DNA from: an uncultured Mediterraneibacter sp.
GTDB lineage: Bacteria > Bacillota > Clostridia > Lachnospirales > Lachnospiraceae
Length of the DNA stretch: 64,000 nucleotides
Reading direction: 5' to 3'
NCBI GenBank assembly: GCA_944381495.1
Contig: CALWLJ010000007.1
Location: 1-64,000, forward strand
Below the pieces are notes generated by a model, which was not told the origin of the DNA, did not search any database, and saw nothing but the letters and a program-made list of their open reading frames with translations. Position numbers and translations under genes: made by a program. Shown in pieces: positions 5,133-63,080 of the stretch (positions are counted from its first letter, which is position 1; each line of letters starts with the position of its first letter).

Positions 5133-5205
5133 GCGCGATTAGCTCAGCTGGCAGAGCACCTGACTCTTAATCAGGGTGTCCAGGGTTCGAACCCCTGATC
5201 GCGCA
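5133..5205 (+). tRNA. tRNA-Lys (anticodon CTT)
   Basis: The 73-nt cloverleaf has acceptor arms GCGCGAT and ATCGCGC, a D-arm AGCTCAGCTGGCAGAGC, and an anticodon stem CCTGA/TCAGG with loop CTCTTAA (anticodon CTT). The T-arm has GTTCGAA. The discriminator base is A and CCA is not encoded. It has its own promoter upstream and a terminator just downstream. Confidence 0.97.
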
Positions 5206-8897: not shown

Positions 8898-8923
8898 ATC
8901 CGGACATAAATTTACATAAGATT

Positions 8924-9016
8924 GATGACAAGGGGAGCTTGTGTACAGGCTGAGAGGAAGTTGAGAACTTCGACCCACAACCTGATTTGGATAATGCCAA
9001 CGTAGGGATGCGTTTA
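8924..9016 (+). ncRNA. TPP (thiamine pyrophosphate) riboswitch
   Basis: The THI-box core is present: GGGGAGC near 8932, CTGAGA at 8950-8955, CCTGATTTGG at 8981-8990, then ATAATGCCAACGTAGGGA at 8991-9008. These are the conserved pyrimidine- and pyrophosphate-binding helices of the TPP aptamer. It lies about 60 bp upstream of thiT and should switch it off when thiamine pyrophosphate is plentiful. No clear intrinsic terminator is seen before the gene, so control may act on the ribosome site. Confidence 0.95.
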
Positions 9017-9074
9017 ATATAGGAAAGTCTTTTGCCTTCTTGTTTTCAGTCTTGAGAACAGGAGGAATTTTTTT

Positions 9075-52343: not shown

Positions 52344-52384
52344 TGGCAGATGCCTGGAGCAATCCGGAGGCGTCTGCCATTTTT
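52344..52384 (+). terminator. Terminator of glnN
   Basis: TGGCAGATGCC (52344-52354) pairs with GGCGTCTGCCA (52369-52379), followed by TTTTT. It abuts the first LacI operator. Confidence 0.85.
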
Positions 52385-52399
52385 GCGCCAGTTGCGCAA
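52383..52399. promoter_or_regulatory. LacI-type operator upstream of the repressor gene
   Basis: TTGCGCCA-G-TTGCGCAA forms a dyad TTTGCGC-n5-GCGCAAA directly upstream of the repressor's -35 box. The same octamer recurs at 53565, 53685 and 53705, so it probably binds the repressor encoded next (autoregulation). Confidence 0.75.
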
Positions 52400-52404
52400 A
52401 ATCA

Positions 52405-52433
52405 TTGACAGAATAAGAAAAATCATTCATACT
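52405..52433 (+). promoter_or_regulatory. Promoter of the lacI-type gene
   Basis: Consensus TTGACA (52405-52410), 17 bp, CATACT (52428-52433), 30 bp before the start. Confidence 0.75.
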
Positions 52434-52463
52434 GGTAAAAAAGATGGAAGGAGAACGGCAGTT

Positions 52464-53486
52464 ATGTCTGACACAGGGGAAAAAAGTGCGGAATCTGAAA
52501 AGATAACGGTCAATGATGTGGCAAAGGCGCTCGGGGTATCTGCCAGTACAGTGTCCAGGGCAATTTCCGGAAAAGGGCGTATCGGGCTGGCCACCAGAAA
52601 AAGAGTACTGGATTATATCAAGGAGCATGATTATCATCCCGGAGGTATCAGTACAAGCCTGATTCGGGCAAAAACGAATAATATCGCTATGATTATTCCG
52701 GAGGTAAAGGAGCTGGTGGACCTGCCCTTTTTTTATACCTGCATGTATGGTGTGAATGAGGTGGCGCTGGCCAACGGATATGATATGTTCGTGGTGGCTA
52801 CGAACGGAAAGGATACCACTCATCTGAAAAGCCTGATTGATAATAATAAGGTGGATGGCATGATTCTGGGACGAACATACAGGAATGACGTGTTTGTAGA
52901 GTTTTTGAAAAAGAAAAAAGTACCTTTTGTTACGATCGGCCTGACTGATGACGATGATGTAGTTCAGGTGGACCATGATAACAAGAGTGCCTGCCGGGAT
53001 CTGACTGCAATCCTCCTTTCAAAAAAATGGAAAAATATCGCCTATCTCGGAAACAGCAAAGGCCAGGTTGTCAATGACAACCGGCTGGCAGGATTTCTTC
53101 AGGCTTATCAGGATGCGGGAATCGAGGTGGACTGGAGTCTGATCAGCACGGAGATCAGTACAGAGTCAATGCTCCGCAGGAAGGTGGATGAGCTGCTGGA
53201 GCGAAAAGTAGACTGTATCCTTTGCCAGGATGATTCGGTGTGCAAGATTGTGCTCCATGAGCTGAGGAGCGAGCACGCACGTATCCCGGAGGATATAAGG
53301 GTGGCCTCCTGCCATAACAGTGAAGTGCTTGACAGTTATCCGGTGTCCATCACTTCTCTGAAGTTTGGAGTGCTGGAGATTGGCCGGGAGTCCTGCGGTA
53401 TCCTGCTGGATATGCTGGCGGGGAAGGAAGTCCCCCACCGCACATTGCTGGATTACGAGGTGGTGTTGAAGGAATCGACCAAGTAG
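52464..53486 (+). CDS. LacI-family repressor of the galactan locus
   Basis: This 340-residue LacI/GalR-type regulator has an N-terminal helix-turn-helix (ITVNDVAKALGVSASTVSRAISGKGRI, about 15-40) and hinge, followed by a sugar-binding periplasmic-type domain (about 72-340). The start ATG 52464 has AAGGAG upstream. Its TTGCGCAA-type operators lie before its own promoter and around the promoter of the downstream ABC transporter operon. Inducer is probably galactose or a galactooligosaccharide (inference from the enzymes). Similar in role to GanR of Bacillus. Confidence 0.92.
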   Translation: MSDTGEKSAESEKITVNDVAKALGVSASTVSRAISGKGRIGLATRKRVLDYIKEHDYHPGGISTSLIRAKTNNIAMIIPEVKELVDLPFFYTCMYGVNEVALANGYDMFVVATNGKDTTHLKSLIDNNKVDGMILGRTYRNDVFVEFLKKKKVPFVTIGLTDDDDVVQVDHDNKSACRDLTAILLSKKWKNIAYLGNSKGQVVNDNRLAGFLQAYQDAGIEVDWSLISTEISTESMLRRKVDELLERKVDCILCQDDSVCKIVLHELRSEHARIPEDIRVASCHNSEVLDSYPVSITSLKFGVLEIGRESCGILLDMLAGKEVPHRTLLDYEVVLKESTK

Positions 53487-53751: not shown

Positions 53752-55050
53752 ATGAAGAAAAAGTTAGTATGTGTATTGCTGTCAGCAGCAATGGTTGCAA
53801 CTCTGGTCGCAGGCTGCGGAAGCAAGGGCTCTGATGAAGGGGGATCGAATGAAGGAGCAGGTTCCGGAGAAAAGCAGACGGTAGCATTAAGAATGTGGGG
53901 AGCTGAGGAAGATCAGAATTTCCTGAAACAAATGGCAGAATCATTCTCTGAAGAATATGCGGATGTGGCAGATATTTCTGTTGAAGTAGGCGTAGAGAGT
54001 GAGTCTACAGCAAAGGATACTGTGCTTACAGATGTTGAGGCAGCGGCAGATGTTTATTCATTTGCTTCTGATCAGCTTCCGGATCTGGTAAATGCCGGCG
54101 CTCTGCAGTCTATCGATGATATGGACGAGGCACTTCAGGCATATGCAGATAAGAGCGTAGATGATATAAAAGAAGCAAATACGGCTGATTCTGTAGAAGC
54201 ATGTACATACAATGACACACTGTATGCGTTCCCCAGAACAGCGGATAATGGATACTTCCTGTTCTACGATTCATCTGTACTGTCAGAGGATGACGTAGCA
54301 ACCTGGGATTCTCTTCTGGCAGCGGCAAATGATGCAGGCAAGAAAGTTGGTATGACGCTGGCATCCGGCTGGTACAATGCTTCTTTCTTCTACAGCGCAG
54401 GATTTTCAACCGGCCTGAATGACGACGGATCTACATCTATGGACTGGAATGGCAAGGCTGATTACACAGGTGTGGAAGTTACACAGGCTATGCTGAATAT
54501 TGCAGGCAACCCGGCGTTTATGGCAGTTGCTGATGGTGATATCTCCAATCAGCTTGCATCCGGTCAGCTTTGTGCGGCAGTATCCGGAACATGGGACGCA
54601 AGCGTGGCACAGCAGGTATTCGGCGACGGATATGCAGCAACAAAGCTTCCTACATTTACGATCGCAGGAGATCAGTTACAGCAGGCTTCTGTATCCGGTT
54701 ATAAGATGGTCGGCGTAAACGCTCACTCTGAGAATGCAGGATGGGCAGCTCTTCTTGCAGACTGGATCACAAATGAAGATGCGCAGAGAACACAGTTTGA
54801 GGAACGTCAGATCGGACCTTCCAACAAAGTTGTTCTTGAGTCTGACGAGGTTCAGTCAAACGTAGCTCTTTCCGCACTGGCAGCACAGAATGAATATGGC
54901 GTTGTACAGTTCGCAGGACAGAACTTCTGGGATCCGGCAGCTACATTTGGTGAGATGGTTGCAAAAGGCGAACTTGATGTAAATGATACAGCAGGAATCC
55001 AGGCAGCGCTTGATACACTTGTAGATGGTGCAACTGCTCCGATCAACTAA
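53752..55050 (+). CDS. Sugar ABC transporter binding lipoprotein (galactooligosaccharide/maltose type)
   Basis: This 432-residue extracellular binding protein of the MalE-like CUT1 class has a lipoprotein signal (lipobox VAGC, Cys22) and a Gly/Ser/Glu-rich linker. The binding domain begins VALRMWGAEEDQ. Its partners and the GH53/GH42 enzymes downstream suggest galactan-derived oligosaccharides as ligand (inference; MalE-like proteins also bind maltodextrins). First gene of the operon, with AGAAGGAGG before the ATG. A terminator-like hairpin follows and may limit downstream transcription so that the binding protein is made in excess. Confidence 0.9.
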   Translation: MKKKLVCVLLSAAMVATLVAGCGSKGSDEGGSNEGAGSGEKQTVALRMWGAEEDQNFLKQMAESFSEEYADVADISVEVGVESESTAKDTVLTDVEAAADVYSFASDQLPDLVNAGALQSIDDMDEALQAYADKSVDDIKEANTADSVEACTYNDTLYAFPRTADNGYFLFYDSSVLSEDDVATWDSLLAAANDAGKKVGMTLASGWYNASFFYSAGFSTGLNDDGSTSMDWNGKADYTGVEVTQAMLNIAGNPAFMAVADGDISNQLASGQLCAAVSGTWDASVAQQVFGDGYAATKLPTFTIAGDQLQQASVSGYKMVGVNAHSENAGWAALLADWITNEDAQRTQFEERQIGPSNKVVLESDEVQSNVALSALAAQNEYGVVQFAGQNFWDPAATFGEMVAKGELDVNDTAGIQAALDTLVDGATAPIN

Positions 55051-55102: not shown

Positions 55103-55144
55103 CGGCCGGCCACATGAAATACAGCAGTGAGCCGGCCGGTTTTT
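55103..55144 (+). terminator. Intercistronic attenuator hairpin
   Basis: CGGCCGGC (55103-55110) pairs with GCCGGCCG (55131-55138), followed by TTTTT. Placed between the binding-protein and permease genes, it probably stops part of the transcripts. Confidence 0.75.
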
Positions 55145-55195
55145 GGAAGAAGACCGGATAAAGTGCTTTTTGTCTGGTTTGGGAAGGAGAGAAAT

Positions 55196-56641
55196 ATGGA
55201 AAAATCGAAAGCCAAAGTCGTTGGATTTTTCAGCGCAATCGGAAGATTTTTTCGGGATTTCGGAGAAGCTGTAGCAAAGGGCGATCTGTTCGTAAAGCTC
55301 TCTCTGATTTGGATGGGGGCAGGATATTTCCGCAGAAAACAGTATGTGAAATCTGTCTTGATCACCAGCTTTGAAGCGTTGGTCATCGTTTTCAGTGTCC
55401 TGTGTTCATCACAGTACATACCGAAGTTTGGTACGCTGGGGACCGTGCAGAGGGAAGCGGTATTTAATCCGGTGACCATGAAAAATGAGATCAATGATTA
55501 TGATAATTCCTTTATGATTCTTTTGTTTTCTGTTGTGAGCATCGTGATCTGGGCTGTATTTCTCGTGGTCTGGATCTCAAATGTAAAACATGCTTATAAA
55601 CTTCAGAAAATGGCAGAAAATGGTGAACATATCAATACGTTCCGTGAGGATCTTAATACTTACCGCAATGAGAATTTTTATAAAACACTGCTGGCTCTTC
55701 CTGTAACAGGAGTTGTAGTTTTTACAGTTGTGCCTCTGCTGATCCTGATACTGGTAGCGTTTACCAATTATGATCAGCAGCATATGCCTCCCTCAGCGCT
55801 TTTTACATGGGTAGGACTTGACAACTTTATCAGCCTGTTCGGAGGCGGCGGACTGACCATTACATTTGGTTATTCCTTTGTCCGGGTTCTTGCATGGACG
55901 CTGATCTGGGCTGTATTCGCTACATTTACGAACTACATCGGCGGTATTCTCTTATCACTGCTGATCAATCATAAACGGGTAAAGCTGAAAAAGATGTGGC
56001 GTACTCTGTTCATGGTCACGATCGCAGTTCCGCAGTTTGTATCCCTGCTGCTGGTAAGGAACTTCTTTGCTGACGGCGGTATCGTTAATACGATCTGTGC
56101 AAATATCGGGCTTACCGGTTTCCTGAGAGACGTGGGGCTGATCAGTACATCTTATATCCCGTTTCTTTCATCTCCGGGATGGGCGCATGTAATGATTATC
56201 CTGATTAATATCTGGGTAGGTGTGCCATATCAGATGCTGATCGCCACAGGTGTCCTGATGAATCTTCCGACGGATCAGGTGGAGAGTGCGCGTATCGACG
56301 GTGCGTCATCATTCCAGATATTCCGTCATATTACCATGCCGTATGTGCTCTTTATTACAGGCCCTGCGCTGGTGACGGATTTTGTAAAGAATATCAACAA
56401 CTTTAACGTAATTTACCTGTTGACGCAGGATGTGTATACGACGACGAACCAGGCTCTGGCAAACTCCCAGGCAAAAGAAGTGGATCTGCTTGTTACGTGG
56501 CTGTTCCGTCTGACGCAGGAGTACTATAACTATAAGATGGCTGCTGTTATCGGTATTGTAGTCTTTGTACTCTGTGCAGCGTTTACACTGGTTGCGTTTG
56601 GCCGTATGACCAGAGGAGACCGAGAGGAGGTATATCAATAA
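55196..56641 (+). CDS. Sugar ABC transporter permease (MalF/GanP-like)
   Basis: This 481-residue CUT1 permease has about eight membrane helices. An N-terminal soluble stretch and two helices (1-150) precede the core, as in MalF/GanP. The coupling EAA loop is SARIDGASSFQIFRHITMP (about 363-381). ATG 55196 is chosen (GGGAAGGAG upstream); the frame reaches back to 55127 without a site. It overlaps the next permease gene by one base (TAATG). Confidence 0.9.
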   Translation: MEKSKAKVVGFFSAIGRFFRDFGEAVAKGDLFVKLSLIWMGAGYFRRKQYVKSVLITSFEALVIVFSVLCSSQYIPKFGTLGTVQREAVFNPVTMKNEINDYDNSFMILLFSVVSIVIWAVFLVVWISNVKHAYKLQKMAENGEHINTFREDLNTYRNENFYKTLLALPVTGVVVFTVVPLLILILVAFTNYDQQHMPPSALFTWVGLDNFISLFGGGGLTITFGYSFVRVLAWTLIWAVFATFTNYIGGILLSLLINHKRVKLKKMWRTLFMVTIAVPQFVSLLLVRNFFADGGIVNTICANIGLTGFLRDVGLISTSYIPFLSSPGWAHVMIILINIWVGVPYQMLIATGVLMNLPTDQVESARIDGASSFQIFRHITMPYVLFITGPALVTDFVKNINNFNVIYLLTQDVYTTTNQALANSQAKEVDLLVTWLFRLTQEYYNYKMAAVIGIVVFVLCAAFTLVAFGRMTRGDREEVYQ

Positions 56642-57483
56642 TGAAGATCAAAGTTTCGGATATCCTAAGGCATGCACTTCTGGCGTTTCTTGCTGTGGTA
56701 TGGCTGGTACCGATCGTATGGCTGCTCGCTACATCATTCAGCAAATACACCGGTATGAACACCTCTACGTTTTTCCCGAAAGAGTGGGCGCTTGACAGTT
56801 ACAAGAATCTGCTGTTCGGGTCAGATACAGTAGCGCAGTTCCCGCAGTGGTTCTGGAATACATTTATTATCGCCTGCTTTACCTGTATTATTTCAACTGC
56901 CTTCGTACTGATGGTGGCATATGCCACTTCCTGTATGAGGTTCAAGGGAAGAAAGACGCTGATGAATATTGCTGTTATCATCAACCTTTTCCCAGGAGTT
57001 CTGGCGATGATCGCTGTGTACTTTATCTTAAAGAGCATCGGCCTGACAAACAGTCATCTCGGTCTGATCTTTGTATATTCAGCGTCATCCGGACTGGGCT
57101 ATCTGATCGCAAAGGGCTTTCTGGATACCGTTCCGGCATCCCTGCGTGAGGCTGCCTATCTGGACGGTGCAAGTGAGGCGAAAGTGTTTTTCAAAGTTGT
57201 TATGCCGATGAGTAAACCGATCATCGTGTATACGGTTATCAGTTCTTTCCTCGTACCGTGGATGGACTTCGTATACGCGAAGATGATGCTGAACTCTGGT
57301 GTGGCTTCTCAGTGGACGGTTGCCATCGGACTTTATAATATGCTTGAGAAGAGCCTGATCAATACATACTTTACACAGTTCTGCGCCGGCGGCGTGATCG
57401 TATCGATCCCGATCTCGATCCTGTTTATCATCATGCAGAAGTTCTATGTGGAAGGTGTGACAGGCGGAGCAGTGAAAGGCTGA
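56641..57483 (+). CDS. Sugar ABC transporter permease (MalG/GanQ-like)
   Basis: This 280-residue partner permease has six membrane helices and an EAA loop REAAYLDGASEAKVFFKVVMP (split here as REAAYLDGASEA then KVFFKVVMP, about 173-194). Translationally coupled to the MalF-like gene. No ATPase gene is present in the window. As in many Clostridia, a shared MsmX/UgpC-type ATPase encoded elsewhere is expected. The GH53 gene begins 21 bp later. Confidence 0.9.
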   Translation: MKIKVSDILRHALLAFLAVVWLVPIVWLLATSFSKYTGMNTSTFFPKEWALDSYKNLLFGSDTVAQFPQWFWNTFIIACFTCIISTAFVLMVAYATSCMRFKGRKTLMNIAVIINLFPGVLAMIAVYFILKSIGLTNSHLGLIFVYSASSGLGYLIAKGFLDTVPASLREAAYLDGASEAKVFFKVVMPMSKPIIVYTVISSFLVPWMDFVYAKMMLNSGVASQWTVAIGLYNMLEKSLINTYFTQFCAGGVIVSIPISILFIIMQKFYVEGVTGGAVKG

Positions 57484-57504: not shown

Positions 57505-58608
57505 ATGGCACCATTTATTAAAGGAATGGACGTCTCCTCTCTGAAGGAACTGGAAGAGCTGGGGGCAAAATACTACATGGACGGACAGGAAAAAGGCCTC
57601 CTGGAGATCCTGAAGGCGTATGGGGTGAACTCCATACGTCTCAGGCTCTGGAACGATCCATACAGTGAGTCCGGAGTACCCTACGGCGCGGGGACCAGTG
57701 ATCTGAATACTACAGTGGAGCTGGCCAGGAGAGTGCTGGATATGGGATTCGGTTTCCTGCTGGATATTCATTACAGTGATTTCTGGGCAGATCCGGGGAA
57801 ACAGCGGATCCCAAAAGCCTGGAGGGGAATGAGCGTGGAAGAACTGGAAGCGGCGGTCTATGACTTTACCCGCAGTACGCTGCTGACCATGCGCAGCGAG
57901 CATGTGTTCCCTACGATGATTCAGGTGGGAAATGAGCTGAGCAACGGACTTCTCTGGCCTTATGGAAAAGTTCCGAATTACGATAATATTGCCCGGTTTA
58001 TCAATGCTGGTATCCGGGCGGTGAGAAGCGTGGATCAGGAGATCCCTATTATGCTTCATCTGGACAATGGAGGAAACAATGCTCTCTACAGGGAGTGGTT
58101 TGATGAATTCATGAAGCGGGGAGAGGATTTCCAGATCATCGGGCTGTCCTATTATCCGTTCTGGCATGGAACTCTGCAGCAGCTGGAGGACAACATGCGG
58201 GATATTTCCGGGCGCTACGGGAAAGAACTGATCGTAGCGGAGGTGTCCATGGGACATACCCTGGAGGATTATAAGGATTATGAGAAACTCAGCGATGAAC
58301 AGCGCAAGGGGATGGCTGCAAAACCGGAACTGGCCGCTAAGATCGAGTATCCCATGACCCATCAGGGACAGTGTGATTTTATGCAGGATTTTCTTACCAG
58401 GATTGCCGGGATCAAAGGGTGCCGGGGATTCTACTACTGGGAGCCGGGCTGGCTGCCGGTACCGGGAAGCGGCTGGGCCAATGAAGAGGCGCTTGCTTAT
58501 ATCGAGGAAAAAGGCCCCGGCGGAAATGAATGGGCGAACCAGGCGCTGTTTGACTATGACGGCAACGCACTGCCTGCCCTGGAGACAATAAGAGATTTTC
58601 AGCCCTAG
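57505..58608 (+). CDS. ganB: Endo-beta-1,4-galactanase, glycoside hydrolase family 53
   Basis: This 367-residue GH53 enzyme cuts beta-1,4-galactan (pectic arabinogalactan type I). The TIM barrel shows KGMDVSSL at the start, RLRLWNDP, acid/base Glu144 in VGNELSNG and nucleophile Glu246 in IVAEVSMG. It has no signal peptide and the fold begins at residue 5, so it acts in the cytoplasm on imported oligosaccharides, unlike the secreted GanB of Bacillus. Part of the LacI-controlled operon. A galactan-specific activity is very likely because GH53 is nearly monospecific. Confidence 0.92.
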   Translation: MAPFIKGMDVSSLKELEELGAKYYMDGQEKGLLEILKAYGVNSIRLRLWNDPYSESGVPYGAGTSDLNTTVELARRVLDMGFGFLLDIHYSDFWADPGKQRIPKAWRGMSVEELEAAVYDFTRSTLLTMRSEHVFPTMIQVGNELSNGLLWPYGKVPNYDNIARFINAGIRAVRSVDQEIPIMLHLDNGGNNALYREWFDEFMKRGEDFQIIGLSYYPFWHGTLQQLEDNMRDISGRYGKELIVAEVSMGHTLEDYKDYEKLSDEQRKGMAAKPELAAKIEYPMTHQGQCDFMQDFLTRIAGIKGCRGFYYWEPGWLPVPGSGWANEEALAYIEEKGPGGNEWANQALFDYDGNALPALETIRDFQP

Positions 58609-58703: not shown

Positions 58704-60557
58704 ATGGACAAATTTATTGTTAATATCATTCACCGTCCGGAGATGGTTCCGGAATATGCGGAAAAAGTGACAGGACATGGAAAAGAGGAGGACCTGGGAA
58801 GGGAATCTCTTCTGACAGAGTCTCTTGACATTTTTAAATTCCAGCAGGAAACTGCGCACAAGAATGGGCTGAAGACAACGATCCAGATTACTTATGCGGC
58901 GCTTTTCAATGAAGAGGCTGTGCGGATCACAAAAGAGCATCATGATAAATACGGAGATGAGATCGCACTCTCTCTGCTGGGACTTCCATGTGAGCAGTTC
59001 CGTGAGAAGTACAAGACGAAGGATTTTTGTATCTGGATGTTTTCCATGGAGGAGAAGAAATCTATCGTAGACGATGTGTTCGGAAAGTTTTATGATGCAT
59101 TCGGATTTTATCCGGAATCAACCGGATCCTATTACATGGATGCGGACCTGATTAATTATATCAAAGAAAAATATCCGTCTGTAAAATGTGCGATTGCCAC
59201 ATGCTGGGAGGAAGGACCAAAGGCTTACCATACATGCAACAATTCATGGTACACGCTGTTTGACGGCGGCCCGTGGAATCCCTGGATTCCTTCCAAACAG
59301 AACACCCACGCTCCGGCGGCAAATGAGGCGGAAGACAGCGGTATCGTTGCGATCCCTCATCTGTCCCGTGATCTGCTGGCATGTTATGACGGAAACGGTT
59401 CTAATTTTGGAACGCATCCGCAGAATGTGCTCCGCGGCATGATCTATGATACAAAGACATGGGAGTATCCGTATCTTTACAATCTGATCGATCAGTACCG
59501 TGCTCTGGAAAAGTACAATAACGGATATGCATATAACATGATGTTCGTCGGACCGGGCTGGCTCAACAAGATGGGACGTTGGGAAGCTCCTTATGAGCTG
59601 CTGAAGAAATCTTATGAGGACGGCATGGCCTACTATGGAAAGCTGAAAAAAGAAGGAAAGCTGACGGATATGACCATGTCCGAGTTCGCGGACTACTACC
59701 GTCAGAAGAAGACGTATACTGAGCCGGAATGTGCCCTGTGGCGCGACATTCTTTACGGATCAGACAAACAGATCTTCTGGTACTGCGATCCCTATATGAG
59801 AGCATGCGTCAACATGGACCAGGGCGGCGCGATCGTAGATCTCCGCCCCTATGCAGCTAAGCTGAAATGGGAAGTAGGCATCGGAACGAAGCATGTACAG
59901 GATGCGTCTTATCCGTTCCTGATCCAGGAAAAATACCGCGCAGGATACTTTACCCATTATGCAGGAGAAGGAACTGTCCGCAGCGCTAAGCTCAGCTATA
60001 AGGGAGAGGAAGTCGATCTGTGTCTGTGCAGGACAAAGGCTTCATTCTCCGAAGAGGATATGGGAGAAGGAAAGAAGAAACGTATCCTGACGCTGGATCC
60101 GGTTGAGATCGAGTTCCACGACCTGACCGTAAAACTGCAGACAAGAGTGATATTTGCAGAGGGCAGCTCGGATATTCAGATCGAGAGAAATATTCTTGAG
60201 ATGAGCGATCCTTCTGCTAAGGTGGAACTGAACGAGTACATGGTGGCTTGCTATGGTACAACCGAGTATCCCGAGGACATGACAGGAATCACGCTTGCAT
60301 GCACAAAGGGAGATGAGGAGAAGACCATCAGCTACGAATACAAGTGCAGAGAGGAAGATATGGAGGGCGCGGACAGTGTCAGCGCTGTGATCCCTGCTAT
60401 TGAGACGAAAGTATCCATGAGCATGAGCACAAAAGACTCCAAGGGATATGTACGCGAGGGATATGCGTTCTCACCGATGTTTACACTTGGTTATACAACA
60501 GAAGTTTCTGATAAGGAGGTAGTATCCACATGGCTCAGGCTGGAAAAGGCAAATTAA
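58704..60557 (+). CDS. Uncharacterised 617-residue protein in the galactan operon
   Basis: I do not recognise a named family. The N-terminal half (1-340) looks like an alpha/beta barrel of the NodB/GH57/GH38 kind: IIHRPEMVPEYAEK, then FGFYPESTGSYYMDADLINY (about 133-152), CAIATCWEEG (about 162-171) and the Trp/Pro-rich GPWNPWIPSKQN (about 189-200). The C-terminal part (about 350-617) is beta-rich, like the sandwich of such enzymes. It has no signal peptide or membrane segment, so it is cytoplasmic. Flanked by GH53 and GH42, it is probably a carbohydrate-active enzyme on galactan fragments. The ribosome site is weak (AAAGG). Confidence 0.6.
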   Translation: MDKFIVNIIHRPEMVPEYAEKVTGHGKEEDLGRESLLTESLDIFKFQQETAHKNGLKTTIQITYAALFNEEAVRITKEHHDKYGDEIALSLLGLPCEQFREKYKTKDFCIWMFSMEEKKSIVDDVFGKFYDAFGFYPESTGSYYMDADLINYIKEKYPSVKCAIATCWEEGPKAYHTCNNSWYTLFDGGPWNPWIPSKQNTHAPAANEAEDSGIVAIPHLSRDLLACYDGNGSNFGTHPQNVLRGMIYDTKTWEYPYLYNLIDQYRALEKYNNGYAYNMMFVGPGWLNKMGRWEAPYELLKKSYEDGMAYYGKLKKEGKLTDMTMSEFADYYRQKKTYTEPECALWRDILYGSDKQIFWYCDPYMRACVNMDQGGAIVDLRPYAAKLKWEVGIGTKHVQDASYPFLIQEKYRAGYFTHYAGEGTVRSAKLSYKGEEVDLCLCRTKASFSEEDMGEGKKKRILTLDPVEIEFHDLTVKLQTRVIFAEGSSDIQIERNILEMSDPSAKVELNEYMVACYGTTEYPEDMTGITLACTKGDEEKTISYEYKCREEDMEGADSVSAVIPAIETKVSMSMSTKDSKGYVREGYAFSPMFTLGYTTEVSDKEVVSTWLRLEKAN

Positions 60558-60745
60558 ATTACCGCTGCCCGATGTGCTTTATGCGCGATCTGGACATTGA
60601 TATGTTTTATGATAAAGAAAAGGATGAGTATTACTGCATCCGCTGCCAGTATGTAGGAAATGAGGAGGACGTGCTCAAGAGAAATGAGGTTGTCCGAATG
60701 AAATACGGCGCAATGATGAAGCGTTTTACAGTGGACGACTTCTAA
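60530..60745 (+). CDS. 71-residue zinc-ribbon protein overlapping the unknown gene
   Basis: This 71-residue protein has Cys13, Cys16, Cys36 and Cys39 (C-P-x-C ... C-I-x-C), a rubredoxin/zinc-ribbon-type pattern, with a charged helical tail. It starts 28 bp inside the end of the 617-residue gene in another frame, with a strong AAGGAGG site inside that gene. The two are thus expressed together and may bind each other. No enzymatic motif. Confidence 0.75.
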   Translation: MAQAGKGKLNYRCPMCFMRDLDIDMFYDKEKDEYYCIRCQYVGNEEDVLKRNEVVRMKYGAMMKRFTVDDF

Positions 60746-60782: not shown

Positions 60783-60845
60783 ACAGGTGCGGCACGGATG
60801 CCGGGGACAGAATCCCGGTGTCCGGGCTGTACCTGTTTTATTTTA
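60783..60845 (+). terminator. Terminator of the galactan operon
   Basis: Outer ACAGGT/ACCTGT arms (about 60783 and 60831-60836) enclose CCCGG-TGT-CCGGG and further GC pairs, followed by a T-rich tail. It separates the zinc-ribbon gene from GH42. The rest of the 310-bp gap holds a TACAAT -10-like word near 60973 but no -35 that I trust. Confidence 0.65.
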
Positions 60846-61055
60846 TGGGAAAGTTTGGCAAATGTTCCTGGTAAAATAAAAGTTTTTCGGGCGAGATCGG
60901 CAAGACGTTTTTTGTTTCGAAATGTTATATTCTTTAGTCAGACATTTCATACAAATTTGATCCGTGACAGGTTACAATAGAACGGAAATAAATGAAACAT
61001 AAACAATATTGAAATCTAGTATGAGAACAGAAGATTTTTGAACAGGAGGAAAAAA

Positions 61056-63080
61056 ATGATCGGAGGACGTATACTTCACGGAGGAGACTACAATCCGGAG
61101 CAGTGGCTGGAATGCCCTGAGATCCTGGAGGAAGATATAAGGCTTATGAAGGAGGCTGGAGTAAACTGCGTGACCCTGGGGGTTTTTTCCTGGGCTGTGC
61201 TGGAGCCGGAGGAAGGAAAATATGAGTTTGGCTGGCTGGAAGATATTGTGGACAGGCTGGGGAAGGAAGGCGTCCAGGTGATCCTTGCGACTCCATCCGG
61301 TGCTATGCCCCACTGGCTGACCCAGAAGTATCCGGAGGTTATGCAGGTGCAGGCGGACGGCAAGAGAAATCTGCCGGGCAAGAGGCATAATTTCTGTTAT
61401 ACTTCACCGGTAATGAGACAGAAGATACATGCCCTTGACCGGGAACTTTCCAGAGTGTTCGGCAGAAAAGAAAATGTGATCTTATGGCATATTTCCAATG
61501 AATTTGGCGGAAATTTTGGCGATTCCACCTGCCACTGCGAACAGTGTCAGGAGGCGTTCCGTCAGTGGCTGAAGAAACGGTATGGAACTCTGGAGGCGCT
61601 GAATCATGCATACTGGGGCAGATTCTGGAGCCATGTTTATTCTGACTGGAGCCAGATTCACAGTCCGGCGCCTAATGGAGAATATACAGTGACGGCGCTG
61701 AAGCTGGACTGGCAACGATTCTCCACTGAGCAGATCAGCGATTTCTGCGCAGAGGAGATCCGCGCGGTAAGAGAATTTTCCGACCTTCCCGCTACAACGA
61801 ACTTTATGGATTTTTTCAAAGGACTGGATTATCACAGACTGGGGAAAGAACTGGATATCATATCATGGGACAGCTATCCGTACTGGCACGAGAAGAAGGA
61901 TGAAGTACCTGCGGCTGTGCGGGCTGCCGCATGTCACAATATGATGCGCAGTATGAAAAAGCAGCCCTTCCTTCTGATGGAAAGCGTACCCTCCAGTGTC
62001 AACTGGCGGCCCTTTAATCCGGTGAAGAGGCCGGGCATGCATATGCTTTCTTCCATGCAGGCCATTGCTCACGGTTCCGATTCTGTCCAGTATTTCCAGT
62101 GGAGAAAGGGCAGAGGTTCCTATGAAAAATTCCATGGAGCAGTGCTGGATCATAAAAACGGAAGCAATACAAGAACGTTCCGTCAGGTGGCGGAAGTAGG
62201 CGAAAGACTGGCGGGACTTACAGAAAAACTGAACGGAACCGTGAATCAGCCGAAATCTGCGATAATCTTTGACTGGGAGAACTGGTGGGCTGTGGAGGAT
62301 ACCACCGGACCAAGACTGGATCTGGATTATGTATCCTGTGTCCTCTCTCATTATCAGGCGTTCTGGGAGGCTGGAATTGAGGCAGATCTGGTAGGAATGG
62401 ATGCGGATCTGGACGGATACCGGATCGTTGCTGCGCCGCTGAACTATATGTATAAGAACGGATACGCGGAAAAAGTGAGAAAGTTTGTAGAGAACGGCGG
62501 CATTTATGTGACTACATATTTCAGTGGAATGGTGGATGAGACGGATCTGTGCTTTATCGGACATCACCCATTGGAGGATGTGCTGGGGATCGTTCAGGAA
62601 GAGATTGATGCACCGTCACCGGAATTTACCAATTCATTCTGCTATGACGGAAATGAGTATCCGGCAGGAGGAATGCGGGAGATGATCCATGCTGTTGACG
62701 GAACAGAGGTCCTGTCTGTTTATGAAGAGGACTATGTGAAAGGAATGCCTGTGGTAACAGCTGCGGCTTATGGAAAAGGAAAGGCGTATTATATTGCGGC
62801 GGAACCGGAACAGAGGTTTCTGAGCGCGTTTTATGCCGATCGGTTCCGAGAGGCGGACCTGGTGAATCCGCTGGGAGTTGAGCTTCCTTATGGAGTAACA
62901 GTTACAGCGCGGAATGGGGAGGACGGAAAACAGATCGTATTTGTCATGAACTTCCGGAACGAACCGGTAAGGGTAGACGGCATCGGAACATGGACTGACG
63001 TTGAGAACGGAACGATATATACAGACAGTCTGGAGATGGGCTCTTTTGGCTGTGTGCTGCTCAGACGGCAGATTCGATAG
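61056..63080 (+). CDS. Beta-galactosidase, glycoside hydrolase family 42
   Basis: This 674-residue GH42 enzyme removes terminal beta-galactose, completing galactan oligosaccharide breakdown. Acid/base Glu149 is in ISNEFGG and nucleophile Glu309 in LLMESVPSS. The zinc site typical of GH42 is Cys114, Cys159, Cys161 and Cys164. The trimerisation domain (about 400-610) and a small C-terminal beta domain follow. The start at 61056 has AGGAGG 6 bp upstream; an in-frame TTG at 61038 is unlikely. No signal peptide, cytoplasmic. It may have its own promoter. Confidence 0.95.
   Translation: MIGGRILHGGDYNPEQWLECPEILEEDIRLMKEAGVNCVTLGVFSWAVLEPEEGKYEFGWLEDIVDRLGKEGVQVILATPSGAMPHWLTQKYPEVMQVQADGKRNLPGKRHNFCYTSPVMRQKIHALDRELSRVFGRKENVILWHISNEFGGNFGDSTCHCEQCQEAFRQWLKKRYGTLEALNHAYWGRFWSHVYSDWSQIHSPAPNGEYTVTALKLDWQRFSTEQISDFCAEEIRAVREFSDLPATTNFMDFFKGLDYHRLGKELDIISWDSYPYWHEKKDEVPAAVRAAACHNMMRSMKKQPFLLMESVPSSVNWRPFNPVKRPGMHMLSSMQAIAHGSDSVQYFQWRKGRGSYEKFHGAVLDHKNGSNTRTFRQVAEVGERLAGLTEKLNGTVNQPKSAIIFDWENWWAVEDTTGPRLDLDYVSCVLSHYQAFWEAGIEADLVGMDADLDGYRIVAAPLNYMYKNGYAEKVRKFVENGGIYVTTYFSGMVDETDLCFIGHHPLEDVLGIVQEEIDAPSPEFTNSFCYDGNEYPAGGMREMIHAVDGTEVLSVYEEDYVKGMPVVTAAAYGKGKAYYIAAEPEQRFLSAFYADRFREADLVNPLGVELPYGVTVTARNGEDGKQIVFVMNFRNEPVRVDGIGTWTDVENGTIYTDSLEMGSFGCVLLRRQIR

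Follow-up and report, generated by a model that had tools for sequence, protein, structure and literature searches.

Two overlapping genes in a locus for galactan use, one encoding a protein of 617 residues (the main protein) and the other a zinc-ribbon-like protein of 71 residues (ZNR), look like an undescribed two-part sugar-processing enzyme. They lie in an uncultured Mediterraneibacter sp., in the 64,000-nucleotide stretch of DNA that was analysed here as a whole and is called the window. Clostridial gut bacteria ferment the galactans of plant pectin, and the intracellular steps have been credited to GH53 enzymes and beta-galactosidase. A conserved unit without a match in Pfam or NCBIfam, carried by 40 of the 299 genomes that represent the window's family, would supply this scheme with a step that it lacks and with a novel kind of enzyme architecture. 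The reading preferred here, at a probability of about 0.5, is that the pair makes up a carbohydrate-active enzyme of the cytoplasm with two subunits. It would probably be a glycosidase, its target being either the products of GH53 or a side group that stands in the way of GH53 or GH42. Going by its predicted structure, such an enzyme would combine a familiar class of fold with an unfamiliar partner.

The gene pair and its surroundings

The original prediction described a 617-residue frame and a 71-residue CxxC...CxxC frame overlapping by 28 bp, the second served by a strong ribosome site inside the first and both lying between GH53 and GH42 genes; all of these features were recovered (Table 1). 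The window carries a gan-type set of genes, in which GH53 and GH42 were recognised by Pfam and the importer and LacI-type regulator by eye. Inspection by eye revealed no evident signal peptide on either the main protein or the window GH53. The Shine-Dalgarno-like motif stands 10 nt from the ATG of ZNR, and the cysteine knuckles of the window ZNR read CPMC...CIRC.

Table 1. Features of the window around the overlapping gene pair
Feature	Position	Strand	Basis or remark
LacI-type regulator, longest ORF	52350..53486	+	By eye; recurs in related loci
Lipoprotein-like sugar-binding protein of ABC importer	53752..55050	+	By eye; recurs in related loci
ABC permease, MalF-like	55127..56641	+	By eye; recurs in related loci
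ABC permease, MalG-like	56641..57483	+	By eye; recurs in related loci
GH53 endo-beta-1,4-galactanase	57505..58608	+	Pfam E 1.9e-112
Main protein ORF, 617 aa	58704..60557	+	ORF list; predicted barrel-like N-terminal and super-sandwich-like C-terminal part
AAGGAGG, Shine-Dalgarno-like site for ZNR, within main reading frame	60513..60519	+	Sequence
ZNR, 71-aa CPxC...CxxC zinc-ribbon-like protein	60530..60745	+	Motif; 28 bp overlap with main
Terminator-like hairpin, hand-picked, then U-rich run	60785..60834	+	MFE -37.7 kcal/mol, z -5.88
GH42 beta-galactosidase (longest ORF), possibly separate transcript	61038..63080	+	Pfam E 1.5e-147

The hairpin was found in a stretch chosen by eye 3' of ZNR (60785-60850), and none of 200 shuffled sequences was as stable. 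It may mark the end of the main/ZNR transcript, and given the strength of the hairpin and the U-rich run behind it GH42 is possibly transcribed separately. A scan of the window for consensus terminators returned 10 against 8.6 expected, the hairpin not being among them, and a promoter scan was at chance level (15 found, 15.7 expected), so that no promoter is claimed. Elsewhere in the window Rfam places a TPP riboswitch at 8921-9025 and a tRNA gene at 5133-5205.

Conservation of the pairing, the overlap and the ribosome site

The pairing was followed through 87 loci, made up of 80 kept relatives, the window locus and six from a further genome search, and ZNR adjoins the main gene in 85 of them. 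Of the two exceptions, one lies where its contig ends (L021) and the other is a remote match to the DIST family considered below (L087). In 84 of the 85 the two genes share exactly 28 bp, and in the remaining one they share 25 bp. Among the family genomes, sampled at one per genus, ZNR and a strong match to the main protein were found in the identical 40; this number leaves aside G669 and G712, which had only weak remote matches and would have made 42, and includes G691 and G855, in which the main gene is in two pieces. ZNR without the main protein was not found in any of the 299, and the expectation that the small CxxC protein would travel with its larger neighbour was thus borne out. Diverged relatives of the main protein, 33-38% identical and represented by nine loci in eight genomes (three of one genus), have ZNR directly 3' in all nine, with an overlap of 19-34 bp; in L119-L121 its presence was established by a direct motif search.

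A more distant and unannotated family of about 494-814 residues, DIST (L103-L112, L126-L130 and L132), is remotely homologous to the main protein, profile comparison giving an hhalign probability of 99.8 and E 6.7e-28 over 409 columns. No CxxC...CxxC ORF was found within 700 bp downstream of DIST at any of eight distinct places (13 loci, L107 and L112 being left out). In the samples examined, ZNR goes with the main family and not with DIST.

Of the 84 close loci 81 retain the internal AAGGAGG, as against the 31% predicted from the use of Lys and Glu codons in the same genes, figures that come from related and so not independent loci and yield no clean probability. The ribosome site of ZNR is under selection because its retention so exceeds what codon use predicts, with the same relatedness to be borne in mind. 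When the 30 bases 5' of the ZNR start were inspected by eye in 14 further loci (the nine diverged and five intermediate ones) mostly purine-rich sites were seen, for example GGAGA and GAGGAG, those of L118 and L115 being weaker. A chance overlap of the two frames was rejected on the constancy of the 28 bp together with the conservation of AAGGAGG, and the pair is both real and old.

In ZNR itself C13, C16, C36 and C39 are invariant in 31 of 31 aligned sequences (31 of the 80 available, diverged relatives being left out) and form two CxxC knuckles, presumably for zinc. Searches of Pfam and NCBIfam gave only sub-threshold ribbon matches, and Foldseek returned nothing at E<=0.001, the weak likenesses below that level being to TFIIB, RNA-polymerase and ribosomal ribbons. 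These likenesses are what might be expected if ZNR were an independent small regulator, or a small protein that binds nucleic acids, and had no more in common with the enzyme than an operon. We consider this unlikely, however, for a protein that is never seen apart from the main protein in the family sample and that stays with it in every diverged locus, where the other neighbours differ.

Family assignment and distribution

The main protein had originally been described as fitting no known family, and searches agree: on its own it gave no match at E<=10 in Pfam, NCBIfam or PDB sequences, and a profile of its close relatives (A1) found none among PDB sequences. When 14 diverse members of the family were scanned singly, one matched PRiA4_ORF3 (E 0.0007), one GH57 (PF03065; E 0.084) and one DUF6664 (E 0.15), none of which is matched by the window protein at E<=10. 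There was in short no confident match to a characterised family. At least 560 relatives were confirmed in GTDB genomes, and among the best 80, which were kept, the nearest titles name Mediterraneibacter along with further Lachnospiraceae. Matches at E<=0.001 occur in 42 of the 299 family genomes, in 7 of 295 genomes of the order (with a single-protein query) and in 24 of 391 of the class, some of these last being only remote DIST matches, and in the phylum sample the single match in 249 genomes was the window's own genome. The main family seems not to extend beyond a part of the class. A scan of viral contigs for relatives produced 16 stretches, none of which was confirmed.

Identity of the main protein to that of the window averages 85% over the 80 loci and that of GH53 68% in 68 of them, a comparison that is biased because the loci were picked by similarity of the main protein, from which part of the high identity arises. 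Strong conservation, to the extent that it survives this bias, would also be in keeping with a protein that has no catalysis of its own and serves the galactan enzymes of the cytoplasm as a sensor, a chaperone or a scaffold. Such a role is hard to credit for a protein whose barrel part (residues 1-340) contains 12 of the 18 invariant residues that are charged or histidine and whose diverged relatives occur at loci in which GH53 was not observed.

Predicted fold and candidate residues

The AlphaFold2 model of the main protein was built with 78 of 81 sequences, all close ones with the diverged relatives left out, and has a mean pLDDT of 68.7 and a pTM of 0.69. Residues 1-340 are modelled as alternating helices and strands and the C-terminal part as mostly beta. 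Confidence is mostly good in the C-terminal sandwich and falls below a pLDDT of 50 over much of 166-294 and 383-423, and the barrel is the weakest and least certain part of the model. AlphaFold2 and Foldseek agree, at the level of prediction, with the barrel-like N-terminal and beta-rich C-terminal halves that had been proposed from the sequence.

The best whole-chain Foldseek match is the GH57 4-alpha-glucanotransferase of Thermococcus litoralis (1k1x; E 9e-13), which aligns along the whole main chain with a TM of about 0.3 and an rmsd of about 20 A, so that the agreement is confined to the order of elements. The GH57 fold is a (beta/alpha)7 barrel followed by a beta-sandwich, and the main protein is predicted to follow this order, with that same low TM and with low pLDDT in the barrel; as given above, it does not match the GH57 profile. 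We know of no zinc-ribbon subunit in GH57. Next comes 3lm3 (BDI_3119 of Parabacteroides distasonis), at E 8e-11, a TM of 0.43 by query and 0.59 by target, and 16% identity; it is titled a putative glycoside hydrolase/deacetylase, has to our knowledge no tested function and goes under the Pfam names DUF3863/DUF3864. The sequence match between 3lm3 and the main protein is non-significant alone: in a search of PDB sequences with the A5 profile it came second at E 0.12, the aligned part including YPS...PA...D, behind the repeat protein v31Bagel8, no stretch of which passed, and only just ahead of an unrelated-looking ToxA protein (E 0.27). The profiles of close relatives (A1) and of DIST (A4) retrieved neither 3lm3 nor any other PDB sequence. 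A PDB search with one DIST protein gave chance-level matches only, and Foldseek against viral structures gave nothing useful. Taken as a model, the evidence suggests a GH57/3lm3-like barrel joined to a super-sandwich rather than membership of GH57.

Lower Foldseek matches of the main protein were to YidC, mutarotase-like proteins and other sandwiches, among them those of cellobiose/cellodextrin phosphorylase and galactose mutarotase. With a glucanotransferase as the best whole-chain match and six invariant arginines (222, 244, 366, 381, 412 and 495) that could bind a charged group, these point to the main rival of the preferred reading, namely that the protein works on the same oligosaccharides without being a hydrolase, as a transglycosylase, a phosphorylase or a sugar epimerase/isomerase. 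The sandwich is common to many families, YidC included, and carries no function by itself, and the alpha/alpha barrel of cellobiose/cellodextrin phosphorylases is not among the predicted elements of the main protein; we regard this rival as somewhat unlikely.

The original prediction had also spoken of a glycosidase/deacetylase-like enzyme. The first half is consistent with the 3lm3 title and the GH57 match; the second would make the main protein a NodB-like carbohydrate de-O- or de-N-acetylase, removing acetyl groups from the fragments after their import. In its favour the 3lm3 title again and a lower match to the putative peptidoglycan deacetylase 3qbu (E 1.8e-5) could be cited. Polysaccharide deacetylases of the NodB type have an Asp-His-His metal triad with an H-x3-H pattern, whereas the only histidines invariant in the 14 members of the main family (10, 52, 219 and 238) form no H-x3-H, and there is no deacetylase among the three families to which any of these members gave a match at E<=10. 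The absence of the metal pattern led to rejection of the NodB deacetylase, which is improbable.

The residues that are invariant and polar in the 14 members include H10, E86, C167, E169, E170, H219, R222, D223, H238, R244 and D263. D146 is present in 13 of the 14, being Ser in the main protein of L122 (9319-11037). The nucleophile of GH57 is a Glu at the end of strand 4, and D146 may lie near the corresponding place. Eight aligned DIST proteins have an invariant GSW..D near D146, and an invariant GQEN that is missing from the main protein; C167 aligns with a Cys in DIST, and D223 with an Asp in both DIST and 3lm3. On the grounds of invariance and of these alignments, D223 and E169/E170 are the first candidates for catalysis.

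The galactan link and a possible route

GH53 was found in 71 of the 87 main loci, some of which are short. In 79 of the 80 kept loci (L056 was dropped by clustering) the next same-strand ORF of at least 150 aa, a count that rests on picked ORFs, is GH53 in 42 cases downstream of the main gene and in 16 upstream. A strong GH53 match is present in 35 of the 40 main genomes as against 32 of the 259 others (Fisher p 8.6e-22), the number of GH53 genomes having been reduced from 74 to 67 by dropping seven whose best match was weaker than E 1e-30. Three of those dropped (G118, G126 and G738) exceed the Pfam cut-off, by which the counts are 35 of 40 and 35 of 259. In the five other main genomes (G681, G692, G718, G804 and G908) GH53 was not found in the searched assemblies. 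The pair thus co-occurs strongly with GH53.

The window's own genome also encodes a 1052-aa GH53 (L163:4729-7887) that begins like a signal peptide and ends in a PKTG-like wall anchor, both identified by eye, and that is likely to be the extracellular galactanase. A secreted-type GH53 alongside a window GH53 without a signal peptide would make sense of a route of outside cutting, import and inside cutting. Galactan would be cut outside the cell by the secreted GH53, the fragments would enter through the ABC importer, and the intracellular GH53, the main/ZNR pair and GH42 would finish them. ZNR would be translated from the ribosome site inside the end of the main gene, so that the two would be made together, and would bind the main protein as a metal-ribbon subunit, obligate and either structural or regulatory in role. 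The active site is probably in the (beta/alpha) barrel, near E169/E170, D223, H219/R222 and the nearly invariant D146. It may even be the case that the main protein founds a new glycosidase family in which the obligate zinc-ribbon subunit, encoded by the overlapping gene, forms or controls the active site; this more specific proposal is a tentative one. We know of no glycosidase family that is two-part with a zinc-ribbon subunit. A literature search that covered the smaller part of subscription papers and no bioRxiv preprints found neither a glycosidase of this kind nor a description of the main family.

The gan operon of Bacillus subtilis (ganSPQAB, with GanR) resembles the window in having a LacI-type regulator, three importer genes, GH53 and a beta-galactosidase, but as far as the account in PMC5472308 goes it is a five-gene operon, and so without the main protein and ZNR, and its GH53 is secreted, unlike that of the window as judged by eye. 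GanA alone is reported there to break the products of GH53 into galactose (PMC5472308), so that no missing step is obvious and an extra enzyme should have a target beyond the reach of GanA, for example a substituent, or else work with different energetics. The GH53 loci of Roseburia and Eubacterium rectale, to the extent that PMC5320581 sets them out, are likewise described without such a pair.

Relatives in other glycan loci

The original prediction confined the pair to imported galactan fragments. The association with GH53 agrees with this for a large part of the family, but the role is drawn too narrowly, and a galactan-only function for the whole main family was rejected, since diverged pairs sit in other glycan loci. 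One such pair lies with GH31, a GH78-type rhamnosidase and GH42 (L118), another adjoins PL8 (L119), and others are accompanied by a raffinose-synthase-like (GH36-like) and a GH88-like gene (L122), by a melibiase-like gene and a mannitol-type dehydrogenase (L123), or by GH2, GH63-like and GlcNAc 2-epimerase-family genes (L131); in L124 no glycan gene was found among the two neighbours scanned. Glycan genes thus adjoin the diverged pair in most of the loci whose neighbours were examined. From these varied neighbours the pair looks like a general glycan module, one large branch of which is tied to galactan, and a spread of relatives over other polysaccharide loci is what a family of enzymes differing in specificity should show.

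The genome that carries L122 (G370) has a second copy of the main gene, that of L123. Beside the pair in L122 (13050-18798) there are also two glycyl-radical-enzyme-like genes with activating-enzyme-like genes, recognised mostly by eye, one of the former being confirmed by Pfam as PFL-like with a Gly_radical domain.
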